Shown in pieces: positions 2,600 through 28,579 of a stretch of DNA of 64,000 bases. Every line of letters starts with the position of its first letter. Positions within the stretch are counted from its first letter, which is position 1. Below the pieces are notes generated by a model. It searched no databases, had not been told where the DNA came from, and saw only the letters and a program-made list of their open reading frames with translations. The translations under genes and the position numbers were made by a program. Source of the stretch: Lactobacillus sp. PV034 (GTDB lineage: Bacteria > Bacillota > Bacilli > Lactobacillales > Lactobacillaceae); assembly GCF_014522305.1 (NCBI RefSeq), contig NZ_CP041982.1, positions 1,520,655 through 1,584,654 on the forward strand, read 5' to 3'.

Positions 2600-4438
2600 A
2601 TGGCTTATCAAGCCCTTTATCGTAAATGGCGCCCCAAGACCTTTGATGATGTAGTGGGTCAAGGTGCGATAACTGATACTTTGAAAAATGCTATTACGCG
2701 TAATAAAATTTCTCATGCATTTTTATTTGCAGGGCCACGTGGTACAGGTAAAACTTCTTGTGCAAAAATTTTTGCTAAAGCTCTCAATTGTACTAACCTT
2801 CAAGATGGTGAGCCATGTAATGAATGTGAGAATTGTCTAGCTGCGGATAAAGGCTCAATGAACGATATTATTGAAATTGATGCCGCTTCAAATAATGGAG
2901 TTGACGAGATTCGGGATATTCGTGATAAGGTGAAGTATGCTCCTACCCAAGGAAAGTATAAAGTTTACATCATTGACGAGGTGCATATGTTGTCAATGGG
3001 AGCTTTTAATGCCTTATTAAAGACACTAGAAGAACCACCCGAGCATGTAGTATTTATTTTAGCAACTACTGAGTTGCAAAAGGTACCAGCAACTATTATT
3101 TCACGAACTCAACGTTATAATTTTAAAAGAATTAGTGAACAGGATTTGGTTGCCAGAATGCAATATATTTTAAAGCAGGAACAAATTGATTTTGAACCTA
3201 AGGCTTTAGATGTGATCGCACAAATTGCTGATGGTGGAATGCGTGATTCTTTAAGCATTTTGGACCAGATTTTATCTTATGATCAAGATACTGTTAAATA
3301 CGATGATGCTCTCAAAATTACTGGTTATGCTGATCAGACTAAGATTGAATCTTTGCTATTAAATTTATTGCAACATCAAACGCAATCTGCATTAGATTTA
3401 GTCAAAGAATTAATTCAAAATGGATCTTCAAGTCAAAATATTTTGGATGAAATCATTCAATTGACTGTGCGAGTAATGCTAGCAGTTAAAGGAAAACAAG
3501 AAGAACATTTTTTAATTGAGAATTATCTTGAACAAGTTAAAGGATTTGACCAGGCAGAATTTTCTCAAATTGTTGAACGGGCAAATGAGGCTTTAAATGA
3601 TTTACGGTTTACTAATCAGCAGCAAATCCCACTGTATGTGTTCATTGTTAAAGTGACGCAAGAACAAGATCAAATAGTAACAAAAAATACTGCTGCTAAT
3701 CCTAACCAGACACCAAGTAAAGATGATTCTGGGATAATCAAACTGCAAGAACAAGTTGCTAGTTTGCAAAAGCAAGTTTTAGCTTTACAAAAGAGCGCAC
3801 CTAGTGCTATAAATAATAATTTTTCAGGTAGAATTACTGATGATTATCAAAGTAAAAAGGCGCCAGTTAAACAAGAAATAGCAAAATCAAGTTCAAGCCC
3901 AGAAACACCAAAGATTGCTAAGCGTATTAATAAGAATACAAAAGCTGCGCAAGAAAATAATCGTCGCCAAGTTTATCATGTTTTGGAAAATGCCACTAAA
4001 CAAGATATTGCAGCCATTAAAGATATTTGGCCTGATTTATTAACGATGCTAGAAGTATCGCAAAGGGCAGTCTTAGAAGTTTTAGAACCTGTTGCTGCAA
4101 GTTCTAGTCAGGTTGTTTTAAAATGTAAATATGAGTTATGGTTTGAACGTGCTAATAAGGATAATGATTTAGTTGAACAATTAGAAAGTAAGATTGCACG
4201 ACTAACCAAGCATAATTATGATATTGTGTTAGTAGCAGATGGAGCTTGGGCACAGGTGAGAAAAGATTTTGTCGCCAGTCATAAAGAAGAATTACTTGCG
4301 AAAAAGTTAAAAAAGATCGAAGCTAGCGAACAAAAAGAAAGTGAAGCTAAGGATTCTCAGCCAACAGCTCAGCAACAACAAGAAGTAGTTGATAAGGCAA
4401 AAGACTTATTTGGTGATTTAGCCCAGGTTAAAGATTAA
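2600..4438 (+). CDS. dnaX: DNA polymerase III subunits gamma/tau
   Basis: Clamp-loader ATPase, 612 aa. Walker A GPRGTGKT at 45-52, zinc cysteines C64, C73, C76, C79, Walker B DEVH at 126-129, SRC-like SRTQ around 170. Domain III follows to about residue 370, then a variable Gln/Lys-rich linker with coiled coil and a C-terminal tau region (about 455-560) that binds the polymerase. I chose ATG 2600 (MAYQALYRKWRP, the invariant N-terminus), with AAGAGGTG upstream, over an in-frame ATG at 2546. Near the 3' end the codons TTA AAA AAG form an in-phase A AAA AAG slippery heptamer at 4309-4315, with a -1-frame TAG three codons on. First gene of the replication/repair operon dnaX-ybaB-recR. Confidence 0.95.
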   Translation: MAYQALYRKWRPKTFDDVVGQGAITDTLKNAITRNKISHAFLFAGPRGTGKTSCAKIFAKALNCTNLQDGEPCNECENCLAADKGSMNDIIEIDAASNNGVDEIRDIRDKVKYAPTQGKYKVYIIDEVHMLSMGAFNALLKTLEEPPEHVVFILATTELQKVPATIISRTQRYNFKRISEQDLVARMQYILKQEQIDFEPKALDVIAQIADGGMRDSLSILDQILSYDQDTVKYDDALKITGYADQTKIESLLLNLLQHQTQSALDLVKELIQNGSSSQNILDEIIQLTVRVMLAVKGKQEEHFLIENYLEQVKGFDQAEFSQIVERANEALNDLRFTNQQQIPLYVFIVKVTQEQDQIVTKNTAANPNQTPSKDDSGIIKLQEQVASLQKQVLALQKSAPSAINNNFSGRITDDYQSKKAPVKQEIAKSSSSPETPKIAKRINKNTKAAQENNRRQVYHVLENATKQDIAAIKDIWPDLLTMLEVSQRAVLEVLEPVAASSSQVVLKCKYELWFERANKDNDLVEQLESKIARLTKHNYDIVLVADGAWAQVRKDFVASHKEELLAKKLKKIEASEQKESEAKDSQPTAQQQQEVVDKAKDLFGDLAQVKD

Positions 4439-4467
4439 GATAGATAAGTAAGAAGGAGAGATTAATT

Positions 4468-4797
4468 ATGAGCAAAGGTCCAAATTTTGGTGGTATGAAC
4501 ATGGGAAACATGCAAAGCTTGATGAAACAAGCCAAAAAAATGCAAAAGCAAATGGCTGAAGAGCAAGCTAATTTAGCTCAGCAAGAATTTGTCGGTAAAT
4601 CTGCTGATGATTTAGTAGTTGCTACTTTTAATGGTGACCGTAAATTGAAGGATCTTAAGATTAATGCTGAAGCAATTGATCCAGATGATCCTGATATGTT
4701 ACAAGATTTAATTATTGATGCTGTTAATAAGGGGATTAAAGCAGTTGAAGATGCAACCCAAGCATCAATGGGTAAATATACTAAAGGATTTATGTAA
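4468..4797 (+). CDS. ybaB: Nucleoid-associated protein YbaB/EbfC
   Basis: DNA-binding dimer of 109 aa. It starts with a Gly/Met/Asn-rich N-terminus ([22 protein letters not shown]), as usual in Firmicutes, followed by a long helix ([17 protein letters not shown]), the central beta sheet, and the conserved [19 protein letters not shown] segment (about 74-93). AGAAGGAGAG ribosome binding site upstream. It lies between dnaX and recR, the near-invariant bacterial order, with only 1 nt before the recR start. Presumed role is nucleoid organisation coupled to replication and recombination. Confidence 0.93.
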
Positions 4798-5398: not shown

Positions 5399-5634
5399 GT
5401 TTATTAAATAAAAATCGCATTAAAAAGTTAGGCGATGACCAGTTAATTGAAGTCATTTCAAGACTTCAAACTCAACTTGCAAATCAAAAAATGCTTGATC
5501 AAACAACAATTGATTTATCAGATGATAATCGGATTGCAGATCGTATCTTACAAGCAAAATATAATTTTTTATACGATGAAGCAAAACGAAGAAACACAAA
5601 ATCTAGTGGCTTAGCAAGCGTGATTACACAATAA
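5395..5634 (+). CDS. yaaL: YaaL-family small protein (DUF2508)
   Basis: 79 aa, all-helical and charged. It overlaps recR by 4 nt (ATGA), as yaaL does in Bacillus. It has the family's pattern of two helices, the second ending in [15 protein letters not shown]. No biochemical function is established. It closes the dnaX-ybaB-recR operon, because a clear terminator follows. Assignment rests on position, size and composition. Confidence 0.75.
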
Positions 5635-5638
5635 AATG

Positions 5639-5666
5639 TACCCATCTTAGATGGGTATTTTTTTTT
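5639..5666 (+). terminator. Terminator after yaaL
   Basis: TACCCATC, loop TTA, GATGGGTA, followed by nine T. A strong intrinsic terminator that separates the dnaX operon from tmk. Confidence 0.88.
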
Positions 5667-5741
5667 ACAAAAAGTTAAATTTATAAATACAAGACTATTT
5701 TTAACTAATTATTTCCAGTAGAATTATTTTGGAGGTTGAAA

Positions 5742-6380
5742 ATGAGAGGACATTTTATTACTTTTGAAGGACCGGATGGTGCCGGGAAAACAACTATTAT
5801 TAATGAAATATTAAAGCAAATTCCGGCAGCGAAGAAGAAAAATATCTTGGTTACTCGTGAACCAGGCGGTTCCAAAATATCAGAAACAATTAGACAAATA
5901 ATCTTAGACCCAGCTAATAAGGAAATGGATGATCGAACAGAAGCTTTACTCTATGCTGCGCAGCGAGGTCAGCATATCAATGAAACTGTCCGGCCAGCGC
6001 TTATGGCAGGGAAGAATGTATTCTCAGATCGTTATATTGATAGTTCACTTGCTTACCAGGGAGTTGGGCGCAATTTGGGAATTGAAGCAGTCCAGTTGAT
6101 TAATGACTTTGCGACTAATAATTTAGTAGCTGACTTAACTCTATTTTTTGACCTTAAACCAGAAATCGGTTTAGCTAGAATTAAGAAGTTACGTCCTGAT
6201 CAAGAAGATCGCTTAGAACAAGAAAAACTTGCTTTTCACCAAAAAGTCTATGAAGGTTATCAAGAACTTTTATCACGTGATAAGAAGCGGATTAAAGTTG
6301 TTGATGCCAGTCAGTCAATTCCTGATGTTGTTGCCCAAAGTGTTAAAATAATAAAAAGTAAATTTCCTGAGATATTTTAA
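5742..6380 (+). CDS. tmk: Thymidylate kinase
   Basis: Phosphorylates dTMP to dTDP in dTTP synthesis; 212 aa, normal length. P-loop GPDGAGKTT at about 9-17, the DR(Y/H) motif [17 protein letters not shown] at about 88-104 and a LID region with RxxxxDR-like residues ([13 protein letters not shown], about 142-154). ATG 5742 has GGAGG six bases upstream and gives [13 protein letters not shown]; a TTG two codons earlier would overlap the ribosome binding site. First gene of tmk-darA-holB-yabA-rsmI, the conserved Firmicutes order. Confidence 0.95.
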
Positions 6381-22423: not shown

Positions 22424-22466
22424 TAAGCTAACTCCTATTAAAAAGTTTATTAATCTTAAATAATTA

Positions 22467-22498
22467 AAATGCTGATGACTAAGTCATCAGCATTTTTT
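22467..22498 (+). terminator. Terminator after groEL
   Basis: AATGCTGATGACT and AGTCATCAGCATT, nearly perfect 13-bp arms, followed by six T. It marks the left border of the accessory cluster. Confidence 0.92.
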
Positions 22499-22561: not shown

Positions 22562-23392
22562 ATGAATCAAGAAAGAAATATTGGAAAATTCTTATATCAA
22601 GAACGTAAAAAAAGAGGATTAACTCAAAAAGAATTCGTTAGAAATATTATTTCAGTATCTCAATATTCAAGAGTTGAACAAGGGCAACAAGATTTACGCA
22701 CTATAGATTTCTTTAAAATAATTAATATTAATAAAATTAAATTAAATGAATTGATGACAGCTGTTAATGAAGAAAAGTTAGTTAACGAAAACTCAGATGA
22801 TGAAATTTTAAAACGACTAGCGAACGCTTTTTATGATCGTAATTTAGTAGAAATAAAATCTATTAAAGAAAAATATCGTCCCATAAAATTAAAAGAAAAT
22901 ATTGTTTTACAAGCTACGTTGATGGAGTCAATTTTACAAGATAATTTAAAAAATTTAGATCCTATAATTATTAAAAAATTATCTCAAAAATTAAATGAAG
23001 CTGATGAGTGGACTACAAATAAAGTATTTTTACAACTATTTGGAAGTTCTATGATGATTTTTGATATGCAACGATTGAGTATTTATATGAAAAAAATTAT
23101 ACGAACTTATATGAATAAAATATCTCAGTATTCCTTTGAAACTCAAAGGAGAATAGGATCGATTTGCATTAATTATTTAGGCAGGGCATACCAAGAACAA
23201 GATCAGCAGTTGCTAACAAACATACTGAAGTTACTAGAAAATATGTCAGCTAATCCTGATATGTTAATGTATAAATTATTAGGGAAATATTTTGAAAGTT
23301 TATTTAAGAATGATAGAAGTCAAAGTGAGGAGATTCTAGAGATTTTATCTTTATCAGGATATAAGAAATTTATTGTAAATTTGCCAAAATAA
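22562..23392 (+). CDS. Rgg/RopB-family peptide-sensing transcriptional regulator
   Basis: 276 aa. N-terminal XRE-type HTH (about 1-65): FLYQERKKRGLTQKEFV and VSQYSRVEQGQQDLRT match the Rgg/MutR pattern. The rest (about 70-276) is all-helical and lacks enzymatic motifs, as expected for the Rgg C-terminal TPR-like peptide-binding domain. ATG 22562 has GGAGA seven bases upstream. No signal peptide or membrane segment. It is followed in the same direction by an inverted repeat, a promoter and a 10-codon peptide gene, the arrangement of Rgg quorum-sensing pairs. Members of this family bind imported hydrophobic peptides and activate the adjacent locus; that it does so here is inferred. Lower GC and more ATA codons than groEL. 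Confidence 0.88.
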   Translation: MNQERNIGKFLYQERKKRGLTQKEFVRNIISVSQYSRVEQGQQDLRTIDFFKIININKIKLNELMTAVNEEKLVNENSDDEILKRLANAFYDRNLVEIKSIKEKYRPIKLKENIVLQATLMESILQDNLKNLDPIIIKKLSQKLNEADEWTTNKVFLQLFGSSMMIFDMQRLSIYMKKIIRTYMNKISQYSFETQRRIGSICINYLGRAYQEQDQQLLTNILKLLENMSANPDMLMYKLLGKYFESLFKNDRSQSEEILEILSLSGYKKFIVNLPK

Positions 23393-23440
23393 ATTTGCAT
23401 ATTTGCAAATTTTAACAAAAAATTTATTCGTGATGATATT
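23391..23440 (+). promoter_or_regulatory. Putative Rgg operator and promoter of the peptide cluster
   Basis: Perfect inverted repeat AAATTTGCA, centre TATT, TGCAAATTT at 23391-23412, overlapping the rgg stop codon. It directly abuts a -35 box TTAACA (23412-23417), with a 17-nt spacer to GATATT (23435-23440). Activator sites of Rgg proteins characteristically sit against the -35 of the target promoter. It could alternatively be a weak terminator of rgg, but the following T run is only four bases. Confidence 0.6.
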
Positions 23441-23474
23441 ATTTCTCTAATTATTAATTTAGGAGGAATAAATT

Positions 23475-23507
23475 ATGATTATTGTAACATTGCCTATTTT
23501 ACCTTAA
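23475..23507 (+). CDS. 10-residue hydrophobic peptide, candidate leaderless signal
   Basis: Open frame of ten codons, MIIVTLPILP, with a perfect AGGAGG (23461-23466) eight bases before ATG and a promoter about 35 bp upstream. The product is entirely uncharged and hydrophobic, with no signal peptide or propeptide. This resembles the leaderless communication peptide SIP of Streptococcus pyogenes, an 8-residue hydrophobic peptide sensed by the Rgg protein RopB; the regulator here is of that family and adjacent. An alternative is a short regulatory leader frame for the next gene, 39 nt downstream. Expression and activity are unproven. Confidence 0.65.
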   Translation: MIIVTLPILP

Positions 23508-23546
23508 ATAAAAATTACATAAATAAGAGTTAAAGGTAGAAAATTA

Positions 23547-24629
23547 ATGCAAAAAGAATCTAAACTTATTCAACAGTTAGTCAATGAGTCTAATTCGTAT
23601 CAATCTCCTGTTGTGTTATATTCTCATAGATTACTAATCAATAATTTGAATAAAATAATTAAGGATTTAAGTTATTCGAAGAATAGAGTTTATTTATTTT
23701 ATTCTGTTAAAGCTAACATGAATCCTGAAGTATTACAAATTATAAATAAGAAAGTTAGTGGTTTTAGTATCTCTTCAGATCAAGAGTATGAAAGTATAAG
23801 ATTATTCAAAAATAAGATTATTAGTAGAACAGGCTTTTCTTTTCTTCATAATCATATTTCTAAGAATAAGGAAATTTTTTATTTTAATTCTATTTCTCAA
23901 TTAGAAAATTTTCTTAAGTTAAATAGTGATAGGGCTTTACAAATAGGAATTAGAATAAGAGCTCCAAGGAACTTATATGATCGAAATTCATCTATCTCTA
24001 GATTTGGATTTTCAGAAGGCGCACTACGAGATTTAGAGTCATTACAAAAAAGATACAGTTTTAAAATAGATAGTATTCTTATTCACCAAGAAAACAAAGT
24101 TTTAGAAGATTGGCATAGACTCAGTAAATTTATTAAAGATATTTTGAAGAAGAAATTATTAAAGAATATTTCTTCTATAAATTTAGGTGGAGGATGGGAT
24201 AATCTTTTTTTAAAGAATCAAATAGGATTGTTTATTAATCATTTAGGCATTCCCATCCACTATGATGTTTATATAGAACCAGGATCAGCTATAGTAAGAA
24301 CTATTGGTATATTAAAAGCGGCTGTAATTGATGAAAATGAATTTGAGGATAAGCGTTATATAGTGGTAGATACTTCTCAATTTAATAATAGTTCATGGTA
24401 TATACCGAGAATAATTGGATATTCAAAAAATGAAATAAATAGGAAGCCTATGACCACAAATGTTTATGGAAATACTTGTTATGAAAAAGATTATTTTGGA
24501 CAGTATACAAAATGTACTATCAGCTTTGGAAGCAAAGTGTTTATGTTTCCAATTGGAGCATATTATTCTACTACTCATAGAGAATTGCATGGAATAAAAT
24601 TTCCAAGAGAGTATGTTATATATGATTAA
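23547..24629 (+). CDS. Fold-III PLP-dependent decarboxylase (Orn/DAP decarboxylase family)
   Basis: 360 aa, alanine-racemase-like barrel plus C-terminal beta domain. The PLP lysine is K55 in YSVKAN. SRFGF at 151-155, glycine loop LGGGW at 213-217, EPGS at 244-247 (family EPGR), GNTCYEKD at 309-316 with the catalytic Cys311 and Asp315 positions, GAYYST at 337-342. The usual HxGS histidine loop reads IHQENK. Most active-site elements are kept, so it is probably an active decarboxylase of a free amino acid; the substrate is unknown and it is clearly not housekeeping LysA. AAAGGTAG ribosome binding site. Rich in ATA and AGA codons. Its last 8 nt overlap the next gene, so it forms a coupled pair. 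Confidence 0.82.
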   Translation: MQKESKLIQQLVNESNSYQSPVVLYSHRLLINNLNKIIKDLSYSKNRVYLFYSVKANMNPEVLQIINKKVSGFSISSDQEYESIRLFKNKIISRTGFSFLHNHISKNKEIFYFNSISQLENFLKLNSDRALQIGIRIRAPRNLYDRNSSISRFGFSEGALRDLESLQKRYSFKIDSILIHQENKVLEDWHRLSKFIKDILKKKLLKNISSINLGGGWDNLFLKNQIGLFINHLGIPIHYDVYIEPGSAIVRTIGILKAAVIDENEFEDKRYIVVDTSQFNNSSWYIPRIIGYSKNEINRKPMTTNVYGNTCYEKDYFGQYTKCTISFGSKVFMFPIGAYYSTTHRELHGIKFPREYVIYD

Positions 24630-25920
24630 GAGCTATGAAATATATATGAATCAAATAGAAGAGGTTAGAAATCTGACTGATATAGCAAGGGAAATGGAAT
24701 TATCAAGACCTCATATTTCATTAAAGGAAGATACAATAATTCAAAATGAACGGTTAATTATACAGCTAAATCAGGAGATAAGGAAAAGTTGGATAAAAAA
24801 GTGTTGCAATAGAACGGCACCAATATATAAATCACCATTATGGAATACAAATGTAAAAGATTTACAAAATTATTCTTATCATTATTCTTATGAAACCCTC
24901 TTAAATGATGAAAATGACTTTGCGGATTTATTAGGTTATCAAATCAAAAATATGACAAGTAAAACATTTCTTTTTTCAAGTGGAATGAATGCAATTTCGA
25001 ATATTTTAAATTGCTTTAGTAGCTTGATTAAAGAAAAATTAATTATTCAGGCTAGTGCAGGGTATTTTGAAACAAAATATTTATTAAAAATTTTAAAAAG
25101 TATGGGAAATGAAATCTATACTGATTTTACTAATAATGTAAATGCCAATCTCTTTTATTTTGAACCGATTAAGTATGATGCTTCATTATCAACTACGGAT
25201 TTAGATAAATTAATAAGCAGGGTTAATCAGTCTACACATTCGCTTAAATTTATAATTATGGATTCTACTATGCATAATAAAACTAAGATTTTTGATGAAT
25301 TAAAAAATAAAATTTATAACTTAGATAATGTAGTATTATGTGATATTCGTTCTGGATTGAAATTGGATCAGGAAGGATTAGAGCTTTCAAATTTAGGTAT
25401 ATGTTCTATTTTTGTATCAAAGAATAACATGAATTTATTTCAAATAGTAAAAAGATATATTGAACACTATAAAAACTTAACGGGTGCAAATTTATCTTTT
25501 TATTCTTTGGTATTAAGTCATTATTTTAAAGGAAAAATTAAATCTGTAGAGTATACTCAAAAAGTTAAAAAACAGATAATGTGGGCTAGCAAAGCTATCA
25601 CTTCGGATTCTTCTAGAATTATTAAAAGACTAATTTGGAGAAATAAGCGAATAGCTAATGAAAATTTAATAGCACCTTTTTTATTTATTGAATTATTTTC
25701 GCAAGAAGAAGAAGAGTATTTAAATTATATTCATAATTTTCAGAAGTTTATGAAAAAAAGGGGTACCCCAATAGACTATAGAAATAGTTGGGGATTCCGA
25801 ATGCCATCGGTAGAATATTTTAATGATATCTTCACTCGAAAAAAATATATTAAATTTTATCCTGGATCTTTTCAGGGACTAACAGCTGTTAATGCTATTT
25901 ATTATTTAAATAGGATATAA
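24622..25920 (+). CDS. Divergent fold-I PLP enzyme (Cys/Met-metabolism-like)
   Basis: 432 aa. Residues about 60-200 contain FLFSSGMNAISNIL, the phosphate-binding SGMxAI signature of cystathionine gamma-synthase/lyase-type enzymes, and later DIRSGLKLDQ where the family has its PLP-pyridine Asp, then IFVSKNN, whose Lys is the likely Schiff-base lysine. The C-terminal part (SWGFRMPSVEYF ... YPGSFQG) resembles the small domain. An N-terminal helical extension of about 60 residues is not typical. Highly divergent; it may act by transamination, gamma/beta-replacement or elimination. Start: ATG 24622 overlaps the decarboxylase stop (ATGATTAA) with AAGAGAG ten bases upstream; ATG 24613 is possible. 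No known pathway fits. Confidence 0.65.
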   Translation: MIKSYEIYMNQIEEVRNLTDIAREMELSRPHISLKEDTIIQNERLIIQLNQEIRKSWIKKCCNRTAPIYKSPLWNTNVKDLQNYSYHYSYETLLNDENDFADLLGYQIKNMTSKTFLFSSGMNAISNILNCFSSLIKEKLIIQASAGYFETKYLLKILKSMGNEIYTDFTNNVNANLFYFEPIKYDASLSTTDLDKLISRVNQSTHSLKFIIMDSTMHNKTKIFDELKNKIYNLDNVVLCDIRSGLKLDQEGLELSNLGICSIFVSKNNMNLFQIVKRYIEHYKNLTGANLSFYSLVLSHYFKGKIKSVEYTQKVKKQIMWASKAITSDSSRIIKRLIWRNKRIANENLIAPFLFIELFSQEEEEYLNYIHNFQKFMKKRGTPIDYRNSWGFRMPSVEYFNDIFTRKKYIKFYPGSFQGLTAVNAIYYLNRI

Positions 25921-25953
25921 AATCTTAAGTATTATTAAAGGAGGTGAAGTAGT

Positions 25954-26100
25954 ATGGAAATAAGACTTTCTAAAGATCAGCTTTCTATGAAAAATATGGA
26001 AATTAATTTGGATGAATTAGATAAAACATTAATGCCTGCATTATCAGATAGTGCTGAAATTTTAATGACAGCTTATCCAACGGTAGATAAGCCATATTAA
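25954..26100 (+). CDS. 48-residue peptide, candidate precursor or scaffold
   Basis: ATG with AAAGGAGGTGAA upstream, the strongest ribosome binding site of the cluster, indicating high translation. 48 aa, no Cys, no signal peptide, no membrane segment, and no double-Gly site. The N-terminal two thirds are charged and amphipathic (MEIRLSKDQLSMKNMEINL, DELDKTLMPALSDS), like a RiPP leader; the last ten residues (TAYPTVDKPY) carry two Tyr and two Pro and look like a core. Directly followed by a terminator, as with many precursor genes, so it would be in excess of the downstream enzymes. No similarity recalled. It could instead be a carrier peptide or small subunit. Confidence 0.7.
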   Translation: MEIRLSKDQLSMKNMEINLDELDKTLMPALSDSAEILMTAYPTVDKPY

Positions 26101-26109
26101 AACGAAAAC

Positions 26110-26142
26110 CATATATGGGTTCTAACCTATATATGTTTTTTT
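26110..26142 (+). terminator. Internal terminator behind the 48-residue peptide gene
   Basis: CATATATGGGTT and AACCTATATATG arms (one G-U) with a minimal loop, followed by seven T. It lies inside the operon, between the peptide gene and the FAD oxidoreductase, so downstream genes depend on readthrough. Confidence 0.85.
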
Positions 26143-26160
26143 ATTCAAGGAGAAAAATAA

Positions 26161-27108
26161 ATGGAAGAAAATAAATATGATGTACTAATAGTGGGCGGTG
26201 GACCTGCGGGATTATATACAAGTATTATGTTAAAAAAGGGAACTCCTATGCAAGTTCCAAATGAAAATATAAAAGTAGGAATAATTGAGCCAAATAGAGT
26301 AGGCGGTCTTACTCAGTATGCTTATATACAAATAACTAAACACTGGGCATTTTCTGGAAGAAATCTTATTAATACCTTATGGAATGATGCAAAAGAAGCA
26401 GAAGTAAATTTTATACAAGAATATGTAGTACAAATTGATAAGGAGAAAAAGTTTTTTAAAGTTATAACAAATCAACGGATTTTAAAAGCAAAATATGTAA
26501 TTATTGCAACCGGAATTATGACACATCCAAATATATTAGATACACCAGAAGTCGCAACAATTGGATTACATACGCCAGAGGAAATGATAAACGAAGCAGT
26601 AAATGATCATAATTGGAAAAGAGTATTAATAGCTGGAACAGATAAAAACTCAGTACAAGATTTATCAAAAACTATTTCTAAATTAGGTAAAAATAAATTG
26701 GAGTTAGTAAATTATTATGTATTTGATGAAACAGTAAATATTCAAAAGAAAAATTATGGAATTAATAATAATATTCTTCGTAAATATGATGGGATAATTT
26801 TTGATTATAATTCTTACAAATTAAAAAATGGAAGTACATCTTATTTTAAAAATTTAGGAATATTACAGAAGAATGGCTTTATAAAAACTAATAGTTTTGG
26901 GGAAACAAATGTTTTAGGGATATTTGCCGTCGGAAGCGTCACAATGCCGATATCCGGTATACCAGAAGCCATATATTCAGGACAAGTAACAGGACTGTAT
27001 GTAGGGCGATTGTTAAAGAAGACGACTATCGCTGAACCAAGTGGAAGATTTCCATTTTTCCCTCGGGAACTTAATTGGAATTTTAGTTTTCAACATGAAA
27101 TGGAATAA
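26161..27108 (+). CDS. FAD-dependent oxidoreductase, thioredoxin-reductase-like, cysteine-free
   Basis: 315 aa, the size and fold of low-Mr thioredoxin reductases and YumC-type proteins. FAD motif GGGPAG at 12-17; VIIATGIMTHP (about 117-127) is the ATG motif. The second dinucleotide motif is degenerate (AGTDKNS, about 158-164), and the final FAD motif reads GIFAVGSV where relatives have GD. The protein contains no cysteine, so it cannot use a CxxC redox centre. It may be an oxidase or dehydrogenase on the cluster product, with oxygen or a small amount of NAD(P)H as partner. AAGGAGAAAA ribosome binding site; ends 6 nt before the MFS gene. Confidence 0.8.
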   Translation: MEENKYDVLIVGGGPAGLYTSIMLKKGTPMQVPNENIKVGIIEPNRVGGLTQYAYIQITKHWAFSGRNLINTLWNDAKEAEVNFIQEYVVQIDKEKKFFKVITNQRILKAKYVIIATGIMTHPNILDTPEVATIGLHTPEEMINEAVNDHNWKRVLIAGTDKNSVQDLSKTISKLGKNKLELVNYYVFDETVNIQKKNYGINNNILRKYDGIIFDYNSYKLKNGSTSYFKNLGILQKNGFIKTNSFGETNVLGIFAVGSVTMPISGIPEAIYSGQVTGLYVGRLLKKTTIAEPSGRFPFFPRELNWNFSFQHEME

Positions 27109-27114
27109 TATAAA

Positions 27115-28356
27115 ATGAATAATTTTACGAAATACGGTAATGTATATAGGCTACTGGGAGGGAGAATAGCTACTAATATAGCTGATAGTCTTTTTTATAT
27201 GTCTATTTTATGGCATTTTAAAGAAATAACGAACTCTACTTTAGTAGTTTCTATAATTTTTGCAATAACATCAGGAATTGACACGATATCTTTTGGTTTT
27301 GGACCTTTAATCGATCGAATTTCTATAAAAAGGCTTTTAAAAATATCTACTTGCATTCAGATTTTAATTAGTATTGGAATTGTAGTTATGTTAACTATTA
27401 ATATTAGAAATATAATAGTTAGTATTTTAATACTCATACTTTTTACAATTTCTTCTATATTATCTTCTGTGGTTTATCCTGCAGAAGACAAATTGTTACC
27501 TCTTTTTGTATCGGAAAGAGAAGTTTTGCGATTTAACGGCATTTTTCAGTTAACTTATAAAGTTTTAGATATAGCTTTAGATGCTTTTGTAACTGTTATT
27601 ATTACAATAACTTCCATAAACATTACAGTAATTTTCTCTGGGATTGTTTTTGCTATTGCTTTATATTTTTATTCTAATTTAAAAATTAAAGTTATAGCAA
27701 AAAAAGTTCTTGAAGAAGAGGAATATTTTACTGGTTCGTATATAAAGGATTTATTAATAGGATGGAAAACTCTAAAAGAACAAAAAACAATTTTGGAATT
27801 GATTTTACCCATTTGTGTCATTAATCTATTTTATGGCATTTTTATGGTTGGTTTACCTTATTTTGCACAAAGCTATGTTAAAAATTCTGCGCTTGGTTAT
27901 GGTGCATTACTTTTTGCTTCTTCTTTAGGTAGTATTTTAGGCGCTTTATTAGTTCAAAAATTTAAGATTGGAAAAGAAGAAATGCATGTATTTGTAGCTC
28001 TTTGCTTTTTAGGAGCAGGGATCTTTCGATTAATTGTACCTTTGGCTATAACGCTAAATGTATGGATAATACTTTTTGCTTCAGCAATATCAAGCGCTTG
28101 GATTACAATGATGAATATTAATTTTGAATCCTTAGTTCAATTAAGTTTTTCATCTTCTGTTTTAGGACGAGTTCAAACAATTAATTATAGTATTTTGTCG
28201 GTAATGATTCCAATTGGCTCTATACTCGGCGGCTGGATTGTAAGACTATGGGGATCACTATGTACACAATATATTTATGGGATTTCGTTATTACTGTGTG
28301 CACTATATTATATTTTAGTAATTAAAAGAAAGCCTGATATGTCAGCAGAGGAATAA
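27115..28356 (+). CDS. MFS transporter, probable exporter of the cluster product
   Basis: 413 aa, about 12 membrane helices. The pattern FGFGPLIDRISIKRLL (about 61-76) is the MFS loop 2-3 motif (GxxxDRxxxR-like). The overall form resembles the drug/siderophore-efflux branch (EntS or macrolide-efflux-like). Start ATG 27115 has no clear Shine-Dalgarno, so translational coupling to the FAD gene is likely. Position at the end of the operon suggests that it exports the product or the signal peptide. Substrate unknown. Confidence 0.8.
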   Translation: MNNFTKYGNVYRLLGGRIATNIADSLFYMSILWHFKEITNSTLVVSIIFAITSGIDTISFGFGPLIDRISIKRLLKISTCIQILISIGIVVMLTINIRNIIVSILILILFTISSILSSVVYPAEDKLLPLFVSEREVLRFNGIFQLTYKVLDIALDAFVTVIITITSINITVIFSGIVFAIALYFYSNLKIKVIAKKVLEEEEYFTGSYIKDLLIGWKTLKEQKTILELILPICVINLFYGIFMVGLPYFAQSYVKNSALGYGALLFASSLGSILGALLVQKFKIGKEEMHVFVALCFLGAGIFRLIVPLAITLNVWIILFASAISSAWITMMNINFESLVQLSFSSSVLGRVQTINYSILSVMIPIGSILGGWIVRLWGSLCTQYIYGISLLLCALYYILVIKRKPDMSAEE

Positions 28357-28467: not shown

Positions 28468-28499
28468 AAATCTTCATGTGATCAGACATGAAGATTTTT
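28468..28499 (+). terminator. Terminator ahead of mutS
   Basis: AAATCTTCATGT, loop GATCAG, ACATGAAGATTT with T run. It closes the cluster or the remnant and marks its right border. A TATAAT -10 for mutS follows at 28538. Confidence 0.88.
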
Positions 28500-28579
28500 G
28501 TCATCTAAGAGTTAATATGTTTCAATGAGTTTTACGTTATAATAGAACGTAGGTTTGTAGAAAGGATCCTGAGTTAAGT

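Follow-up and report, generated by a model that had tools for sequence, protein, structure and literature searches.

The seven co-directional reading frames at positions 22562-28356 of the 64,000-nucleotide stretch of Lactobacillus sp. PV034 DNA analyzed here (NZ_CP041982.1, 1,520,655 to 1,584,654; "the window", the final 64 kb of the genome's single 1.58 Mb contig) very probably encode a pathway for a ribosomally synthesized and post-translationally modified peptide (RiPP), with a 48-aa protein carrying a conserved VDK[PV][YC]-type end as its predicted precursor. The RiPP assignment follows from the recurrence, in other genomes, of a pair of pyridoxal phosphate (PLP) enzymes beside peptides with conserved ends. 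The best explanation of the whole, in which our confidence is about evenly divided, is an acquired RiPP pathway coupling PLP-based Lys aminopropylation to oxidation of the peptide C-terminus by a flavoenzyme. The frames lie between groEL and mutS, and all of them, as well as both borders that a sequence-only reading of this DNA had given (the groEL terminator and a terminator at 28468), were found to be present:

22466-22496, groEL terminator, the upstream border, from a pattern scan
22562-23392, + strand, Rgg-type transcriptional regulator, 276 aa, HTH_3 above the Pfam cut-off
23391-23412, no strand, 9+9 bp perfect inverted repeat, candidate Rgg operator (a putative role), just 3' of rgg and upstream of TTAACA-17-GATATT
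23475-23507 (stop included), + strand, candidate leaderless communication peptide (LCP) MIIVTLPILP, 10 aa, Shine-Dalgarno (SD) sequence AGGAGG
23547-24629, + strand, PLP-III, fold-III PLP decarboxylase, LysA/NspC-like, 360 aa
24613-25920, + strand, PLP-I, divergent PLP enzyme of the cystathionine-gamma-synthase (CGS) fold with an N-terminal helical extension, 435 aa
25954-26100, + strand, predicted 48-aa RiPP precursor peptide, core end ...YPTVDKPY, similar precursors in loci L071, L081, L067 and L079
26110-26135, + strand, attenuator-like hairpin of 11 bp plus a T-run between the peptide and flavoprotein genes, -14.1 kcal/mol, z -3.7
26161-27108, + strand, thioredoxin reductase (TrxR)-like flavin adenine dinucleotide (FAD) enzyme, 315 aa, 0 Cys, Pyr_redox_2 (Pfam), proposed C-terminal Tyr oxidase/oxidative decarboxylase
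27115-28356, + strand, predicted major facilitator superfamily (MFS) exporter, MFS_1 and MFS_3 above the Pfam cut-off
28468-28500, + strand, terminator-like hairpin 3' of the cluster, not listed by the pattern scan itself and supported by its folding energy, -18.5 kcal/mol, z -4.2

The peptide gene is preceded by a near-perfect SD sequence, AAAGGAGGTG, and its product lacks Cys and ends in Tyr; what is found is the RiPP arrangement of a short, SD-led ribosomal precursor beside tailoring enzymes, conserved in relatives. By comparison with other Bacillota, precursors with a VDK[PV][YC]-type end are co-encoded with the PLP pair, an MFS exporter and a flavoenzyme matching the last residue: FAD-type precursors end in ...TAYPTVDKPY (window), ...LEVVDKVY (L071) and ...INLVDKVY (L081), and those accompanied by a homo-oligomeric flavin-containing Cys decarboxylase (HFCD, a PF02441 flavoprotein) in ...ELMVDKPC (L067, Terrihalobacillus insolitus) and ...FMLIPDKVC (L079), so that, among clusters with a whole precursor, a C-terminal Tyr is paired with the FAD enzyme in 3/3 and a C-terminal Cys with HFCD in 2/2. 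The last four or five residues are the best conserved part of these precursors, the leaders being acidic and variable (by eye), and in a control covering all of the DNA collected for comparison up to that stage, a DK[PV][YC] end was present in five of 1949 distinct SD-led open reading frames (ORFs) of 20-80 aa, all five being the precursors. Because the gene set and the conserved C-terminus recur in other genomes, the cluster is not a product of chance; and since the PLP pair recurs elsewhere as neighbors, with the peptide beside them, the genes are not "unlinked", the outcome on which the sequence-only reading had offered to be abandoned. The system is real, recurrent and unnamed by any Pfam or NCBIfam model matched here.

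PLP-III belongs to the LysA/carboxynorspermidine decarboxylase superfamily (Pfam; PDB profile matches), the best PDB match of its profile (A7) being carboxynorspermidine decarboxylase 3n29 (2.1e-47), with LysA next, and its catalytic-type Lys55 is invariant in 18/18 aligned sequences; it scores below the NCBIfam equivalog cut-offs for both diaminopimelate decarboxylase (51 vs 297.9 bits) and carboxynorspermidine decarboxylase (46 vs 409 bits). PLP-I, whose start overlaps the end of PLP-III by 17 nt, has no Pfam match and no NCBIfam model near its cut-off (the best Cys/Met model reaches 12.9 vs 487.5 bits), and is 10-15% identical to named CGS enzymes (50 structural alignments, among the matches listed). 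It does possess the fold, the Schiff-base Lys and the Asp of the Cys/Met (gamma) family of fold I, the roles of these two residues being what we take them to be from the motif. The flavoprotein is not a thioredoxin reductase, as it has no redox CxxC, no Cys in 315 aa, and 58.6 bits vs an NCBIfam cut-off of 343.45; it is 44% identical to its homologue in L071 and 40% to that in L081, and its structure model is weak (pLDDT 69). The MFS protein, with homologues in L071, L081 and L067, reaches 112 bits with TIGR00900, below the cut-off of that model, and shows a weak resemblance to drug-efflux families; its gene has no SD sequence in the 20 nt upstream. The overlapping PLP starts, the SD-less MFS gene and the enzyme types (fold-III decarboxylase, divergent fold-I PLP enzyme, cysteine-free TrxR-like flavoprotein) had all been called correctly from the letters, and the "undescribed-looking" character of the linked cluster likewise stands, PLP-I being unnamed in Pfam/NCBIfam and the gene set having no description among the matches listed in the open-licence PMC literature, judged by titles and abstract starts.

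In the proposed pathway, Rgg and the 10-mer would turn the operon on at density, and PLP-I would take a C4 donor, most likely S-adenosylmethionine (SAM), to form a vinylglycine-type intermediate, whose C-gamma would be attacked by core Lys46 to yield N-(3-amino-3-carboxypropyl)lysine. PLP-III would then strip CO2, so that the residue, now N-(3-aminopropyl)lysine, would carry a short polyamine as its side chain, and the TrxR-like flavoenzyme would oxidize Tyr48 at the C-terminus, the simplest version being an oxidative decarboxylation of the kind that HFCD performs on a C-terminal Cys; the leader would be cut and the product, probably antibacterial, exported by the MFS protein. The parts of the scheme differ in strength: we are fairly confident that the core Lys is the target of modification, consider it probable that the flavoenzyme acts on the C-terminal residue, and put forward aminopropylation of the precursor as plausible, albeit tentatively. 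Aminocarboxypropyl transfer followed by decarboxylation is favored because a gamma-family PLP enzyme usually pairs here with a member of the norspermidine-type decarboxylase family, and because the Lys cores and those of the arginase-encoding sister clusters share a side-chain amine, or an Arg convertible to Orn.

HFCD enzymes (LanD) oxidatively decarboxylate C-terminal Cys. C-terminal styrylamine moieties occur in the plant cyclopeptide alkaloids, as described in work on oxidative decarboxylation by a different enzyme type (PMC12871766). The first step has two PLP precedents: Mur24, LipJ and SphL carry out PLP-dependent aminocarboxypropyl transfer from SAM, shown in vitro (PMC10491745, seen in part), and a gamma-substitution has been proposed for LolC with proline and homoserine (PMC4274035, likewise). 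As for the donor, the host genome encodes SAM synthetase and methylthioadenosine (MTA) nucleosidase, and has no match to homoserine dehydrogenase (PF00742) or homoserine transsuccinylase (HTS, PF04204), profiles that matched in 14/14 and 8/14 control genomes, respectively, which makes SAM the likelier donor and a homoserine ester an unlikely one, MetX-type acetyltransferases being outside this search.

A tree of PLP-I (19 rows, the interrupted L079 sequence being left out and L010 assigned to the FAD/HFCD group by its FAD remnant) groups all five FAD- and HFCD-cluster rows together (96/92), with the HFCD row adjoining an FAD row (91/82), and likewise unites the three from clusters with a ThiF enzyme (95/87, long-branch warning); those from arginase clusters do not form one clade. 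Within a single lineage, judging by this topology, the flavoenzyme may have been swapped along with the last precursor residue.

Several points weigh against the pathway proposed. Family membership does not settle the substrate of PLP-III, which scores a little higher for LysA (51 bits) than for NspC (46) in the window and clearly higher for LysA in L078 (138 vs 65 bits), all far below cut-off; nor does the PLP-I fold, which gives a mechanism class, decide for gamma-replacement over elimination. The PLP-I position read as carboxylate-binding is Lys in 16/19 rows (Lys414 in the window) and Arg in 3/19, and the 5/5 association of FAD/HFCD with the last residue would nevertheless arise by chance alone one time in 10. 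Cores of the ThiF type end in Arg-Thr without an arginase, so the Lys/Orn rule does not unify all types, and a leader protease was not identified in the window cluster. Moreover, 9/23 loci outside Bacillota have PLP-I without PLP-III in the same extract, so their partnership is not a constant one in that group, even if one of these loci (L050) stops at a contig edge and has an arginase, two (L047, L061) end near the PLP-I gene, and one (L063) has PLP-I in two frames, the other five (L046, L057, L058, L059, L065) having no PLP-III within reach.

A RiPP pathway might also be at work with a different chemistry, PLP-I acting on the side-chain amine of Lys or Orn by transamination or elimination to give a cyclizing aldehyde and PLP-III decarboxylating some other group. 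The amines of Lys and of arginase-made Orn could both form aldimines, and fold-I enzymes catalyze many reactions, PLP-I being far from the named CGS enzymes (the identity of 10-15% given above); transfer-then-decarboxylation, however, agrees better with the gamma-family fold of PLP-I and with how often its partner is of LysA/NspC type, and we regard this alternative as unlikely. A somewhat fainter prospect is that the peptide is a scaffold whose modified C-terminal residues are clipped off as a small amino-acid-derived molecule, in the manner of PEARL or LysW-type carriers: the peak of conservation in the last four or five residues, the acidic, variable leaders and the drug-efflux resemblance of the MFS protein would suit it, but neither a PEARL nor a ligase domain was found among the window proteins (Pfam, NCBIfam), and precursors resembling a leader plus a short core are compatible with either reading. 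The sequence-only reading had left the product "peptide-derived or amino-acid-derived"; the conserved VDK[PV][YC]-type end upholds the former, and the latter survives only within this scaffold alternative.

That the PLP pair makes a free polyamine, which a ligase then joins to the peptide, seems improbable: EnfB, a ThiF-like RiPP enzyme, can amidate an activated C-terminus with amines (PMC12250964, in the part available), and ThiF enzymes are encoded in three sister clusters, yet no ligase domain was detected in the window cluster (Pfam), and the ThiF profile had no match in the arginase or HFCD loci, other ligases not having been searched for there. An ordinary Lys/Met metabolic operon with an unrelated small ORF can practically be dismissed, as, despite LysA-like and Cys/Met-like domains, the scores are far below the respective cut-offs, the peptide is conserved, and the genes form a low-GC island with no match upstream of mutS in 12/12 genus relatives; sub-cut-off scores and peptide conservation together rule out a housekeeping operon.

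Among the nearest known systems, microcin C7 (MccB, MccD, MccE-N/C, MccC) shares its logic with the aminopropylating pathway favored here, being a peptide antibiotic with a two-step aminopropylation involving a PLP decarboxylase (the order of these steps not being fully settled), and the ThiF enzyme of the sister clusters resembles PaaA and MccB. The proposed transferase of the window, in contrast, is a PLP gamma-family enzyme and not methyltransferase-type MccD, the precursor has 48 aa and a C-terminal Tyr, and the cluster is without ThiF; microcin C membership was rejected, as the window has no ThiF/MccB-type adenylyltransferase and, among the profiled loci, ThiF matched only in L007, L011 and L038. 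Microcin C7 relies on MFS export and acetyltransferase immunity. Mur24/LipJ/SphL resemble PLP-I, in the role proposed for it, as PLP enzymes placing an aminocarboxypropyl group on an amine, but are ACC synthase-like and, according to the excerpted PMC10491745, belong to nucleoside antibiotic pathways, whereas PLP-I is CGS-like with a proposed peptide substrate. In loline biosynthesis, LolD is a fold-III decarboxylase. The partner LolC is a proposed gamma-substitution enzyme (PMC4274035, in the part seen), the product being, however, a fungal alkaloid made from free proline, with no peptide involved.

LanD/HFCD RiPPs resemble L067 and L079, with their PF02441 flavoprotein and C-terminal Cys precursors, and differ from the window with its TrxR-like flavoprotein and C-terminal Tyr; a lanthipeptide or other thioether RiPP was discarded because the peptide is Cys-free and Pfam shows no lanthionine enzyme domain among the proteins of the window cluster. 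Daptides have a precursor with a C-terminal Thr and a characteristic set of oxidoreductase, aminotransferase and methyltransferase, and the window peptide ends in Tyr. Peptide arginase OspR (landornamide) converts Arg to Orn on a RiPP core, as is proposed for the arginase-type sister clusters, but is a pfam12640 protein (PMC10028609, part seen), as opposed to the PF00491 of the two sister arginases scanned with Pfam, which carry ~100-130 aa ahead of the domain. The proposed polyamine side chain on Lys/Orn would be a peptide analogue of deoxyhypusine.

Were aminopropylation confirmed, this would be a new RiPP class, which we can propose only with reserve: one of Bacillota and Actinomycetota, under Rgg quorum control, in which PLP enzymes alone would aminopropylate Lys or Orn made by the arginase, and in which the flavoenzyme would be exchangeable (HFCD with a C-terminal Cys, TrxR-derived with a C-terminal Tyr). 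It would entail an undescribed decoration of ribosomal peptides by two PLP enzymes, a methyltransferase-type transferase being dispensed with, and would add a new flavoenzyme acting on the peptide C-terminus. The arginase, HFCD, ThiF and FAD versions offer a natural series for dissecting the role of each enzyme, the carrier lactobacilli and bacilli are generally easy to culture, and sister-cluster acetyltransferases hint at amine-bearing antibacterial products.

The arginase-type branch is apparently widespread. Its precursors end in ...GGSRPRLK, ...GGSRIDKDRL, ...GGSRPRVN, ...GGSRPRGDLQQF and ...GGGSRLRQRMS in 5/5 Bacillota loci, and were found in seven of the nine non-Bacillota arginase loci (not in L050 and L066), six ending in GGSRPR plus 1-4 residues and one in ...AASRPSGN. 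Seven actinomycete loci (L043, L044, L045, L048, L052, L054 and L062) combine PLP-III, a PF00491-type arginase and PLP-I with precursors of 54-63 aa, six of which have the GGSRPR plus 1-4 residues end. In L078, a 19-nt perfect inverted repeat (4421-4439, 4620-4638) flanks the arginase-type precursor gene, making an RNA stem possible (by eye). The loci of the ThiF-type branch are:

L007, 4558-12544
L011, 6497-13045
L038, 5629-12219

Precursors of these three clusters end in ...SVERT, ...ATERT and ...MRVRT (3/3). The loci also encode an uncharacterized protein of ~390 aa that matches nothing significantly in Pfam and occupies two frames in L011 and L038, and acetyltransferases are present in L007 (GNAT) and L038 (AAC(3)-family). 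The L007 ThiF protein matches PaaA (97-228) and MccB (65-228), mostly over the E1 part, and the N-terminal extensions of the sister ThiF and arginase proteins have no Pfam match, a RiPP recognition element having been looked for. Since PMC12250964 mentions, without description, both decarboxylases and PLP enzymes in the vicinity of ThiF clusters of Enterococcus and Streptococcus, the ThiF branch may be partly known. Among Pseudomonadota and kin, PLP-I stands beside PLP-III in L049, L051, L053, L055, L056 and L060 and alone in L046, L057, L058, L059, L063 and L065, the arginase, ThiF and FAD profiles having no match in these 12 loci; the PLP pair of such loci might serve on its own to make aminopropyl polyamines.

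Frequencies given here rest on genome samples, as opposed to a survey of the full protein database. PLP-I is rare (4/397 family genomes, 3/398 class genomes at 1e-8, 5/200 genomes in the order of G775, 2/108 in the family of G894), with at least 25 loci among 84,980 species (two motif patterns); it occurs on plasmids in three records (Enterococcus faecalis LR962333.1, Mammaliicoccus sciuri NZ_CP077961.1, Lactococcus lactis NZ_CP053672.2) and had no phage match, and a genome-contig scan with the window PLP-I as the only query returned no match. The FAD enzyme subfamily is present in 2/398 class genomes (E 1e-20), both with PLP-I, and had no plasmid match at 1e-20. An order search with the PLP-I profile matched in 25/395 genomes, two being members (G000, G670) and three remnants (G486, G566, G407); the other 20 (best E 2.6e-9 to 9.7e-4, partial profile) were judged collectively and set aside as ordinary Cys/Met enzymes.

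The 43 extracts scanned with the profile of each enzyme represent 42 distinct places (L064 repeats L009), and a PLP-III match accompanies PLP-I in 15/19 Bacillota and 14/23 non-Bacillota loci, PLP-I being itself partial in the four Bacillota loci without PLP-III (L040, L041, L042, L082). The clusters seem to be often lost, as at least nine of the 19 Bacillota loci (L009, L010, L011, L038, L040, L041, L042, L079, L082) have a split, interrupted or partial cluster gene, the intactness of the rest being judged by open frames only. L009, L010 and L082 are further, decayed FAD-type loci; no precursor gene was found in L009 or L082. In L010, the FAD remnant is immediately preceded by a 16-aa ORF with a precursor-like SD, which may be the beginning of a peptide gene; in L040, an 18-aa ORF of this kind stands just before the PLP-I remnant. 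These arrangements suggest deletions beginning in the precursor gene.

Control of the operon by Rgg and the 10-mer is inferred from gene order, the inverted repeat and the presence of Rgg-type regulators next to three related clusters. In Lactobacillaceae and further families, LCPs are encoded next to RopB-clan receptors by SD-led hydrophobic ORFs, mostly of 8-10 aa (PMC10518010, in part); the window shares with such Rgg/LCP quorum systems an SD-led hydrophobic 10-aa ORF adjoining the receptor gene, and differs in that its Rgg matches HTH_3 only and has no Rgg_C match in Pfam. That Rgg has a single PDB match, a 288-aa transcriptional regulator (E 3e-6, residues 5-246), and it resembles its counterparts in L081, L078 and L079, Rgg proteins that adjoin the clusters and do match Rgg_C, in the N-terminal part only (22-25% identity). 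MIIVTLPILP was not found in the open-licence literature text, LCP sequences sitting in figures outside that text, and in L081 no obvious SD-led 8-10 aa ORF was seen in the stretch 5400-5760 (by eye). TTAACA-17-GATATT, after the inverted repeat, is a weak promoter-like site, such sites being overall no commoner than in shuffles (36 vs 43.6). The hairpin at 26110-26135, like the inverted repeat a feature beyond those of the sequence-only reading, follows the precursor gene, a position commonly taken by attenuators through which a precursor peptide is kept in excess.

The cluster is read as a horizontally acquired island because of its low GC (26.9% over 22562-28356 vs 34.6% over 1-22000 plus 28581-64000), its absence from the DNA upstream of mutS in the relatives compared and a break in homology to L099 at the groEL terminator and mutS. 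Of 24 relatives in which MutS was matched, 12 were compared over the 3-3.4 kb upstream of mutS, and the cluster proteins had no match there in any of the 12. groEL lies just upstream of mutS in three of them (gaps of ~0.16, 0.7 and 0.2 kb vs 6.2 kb in the window), farther upstream in L098, L104 and L106 (2.2-3.0 kb, other DNA intervening), and is absent from this stretch in the other six. Homology between the window and its nearest relative L099 (groEL 98%, mutS 94%) ends just past the groEL terminator and restarts just ahead of mutS; a short acetyltransferase-like ORF (L099, 2519-3207, by eye) occupies the groEL-mutS gap there instead of the cluster.

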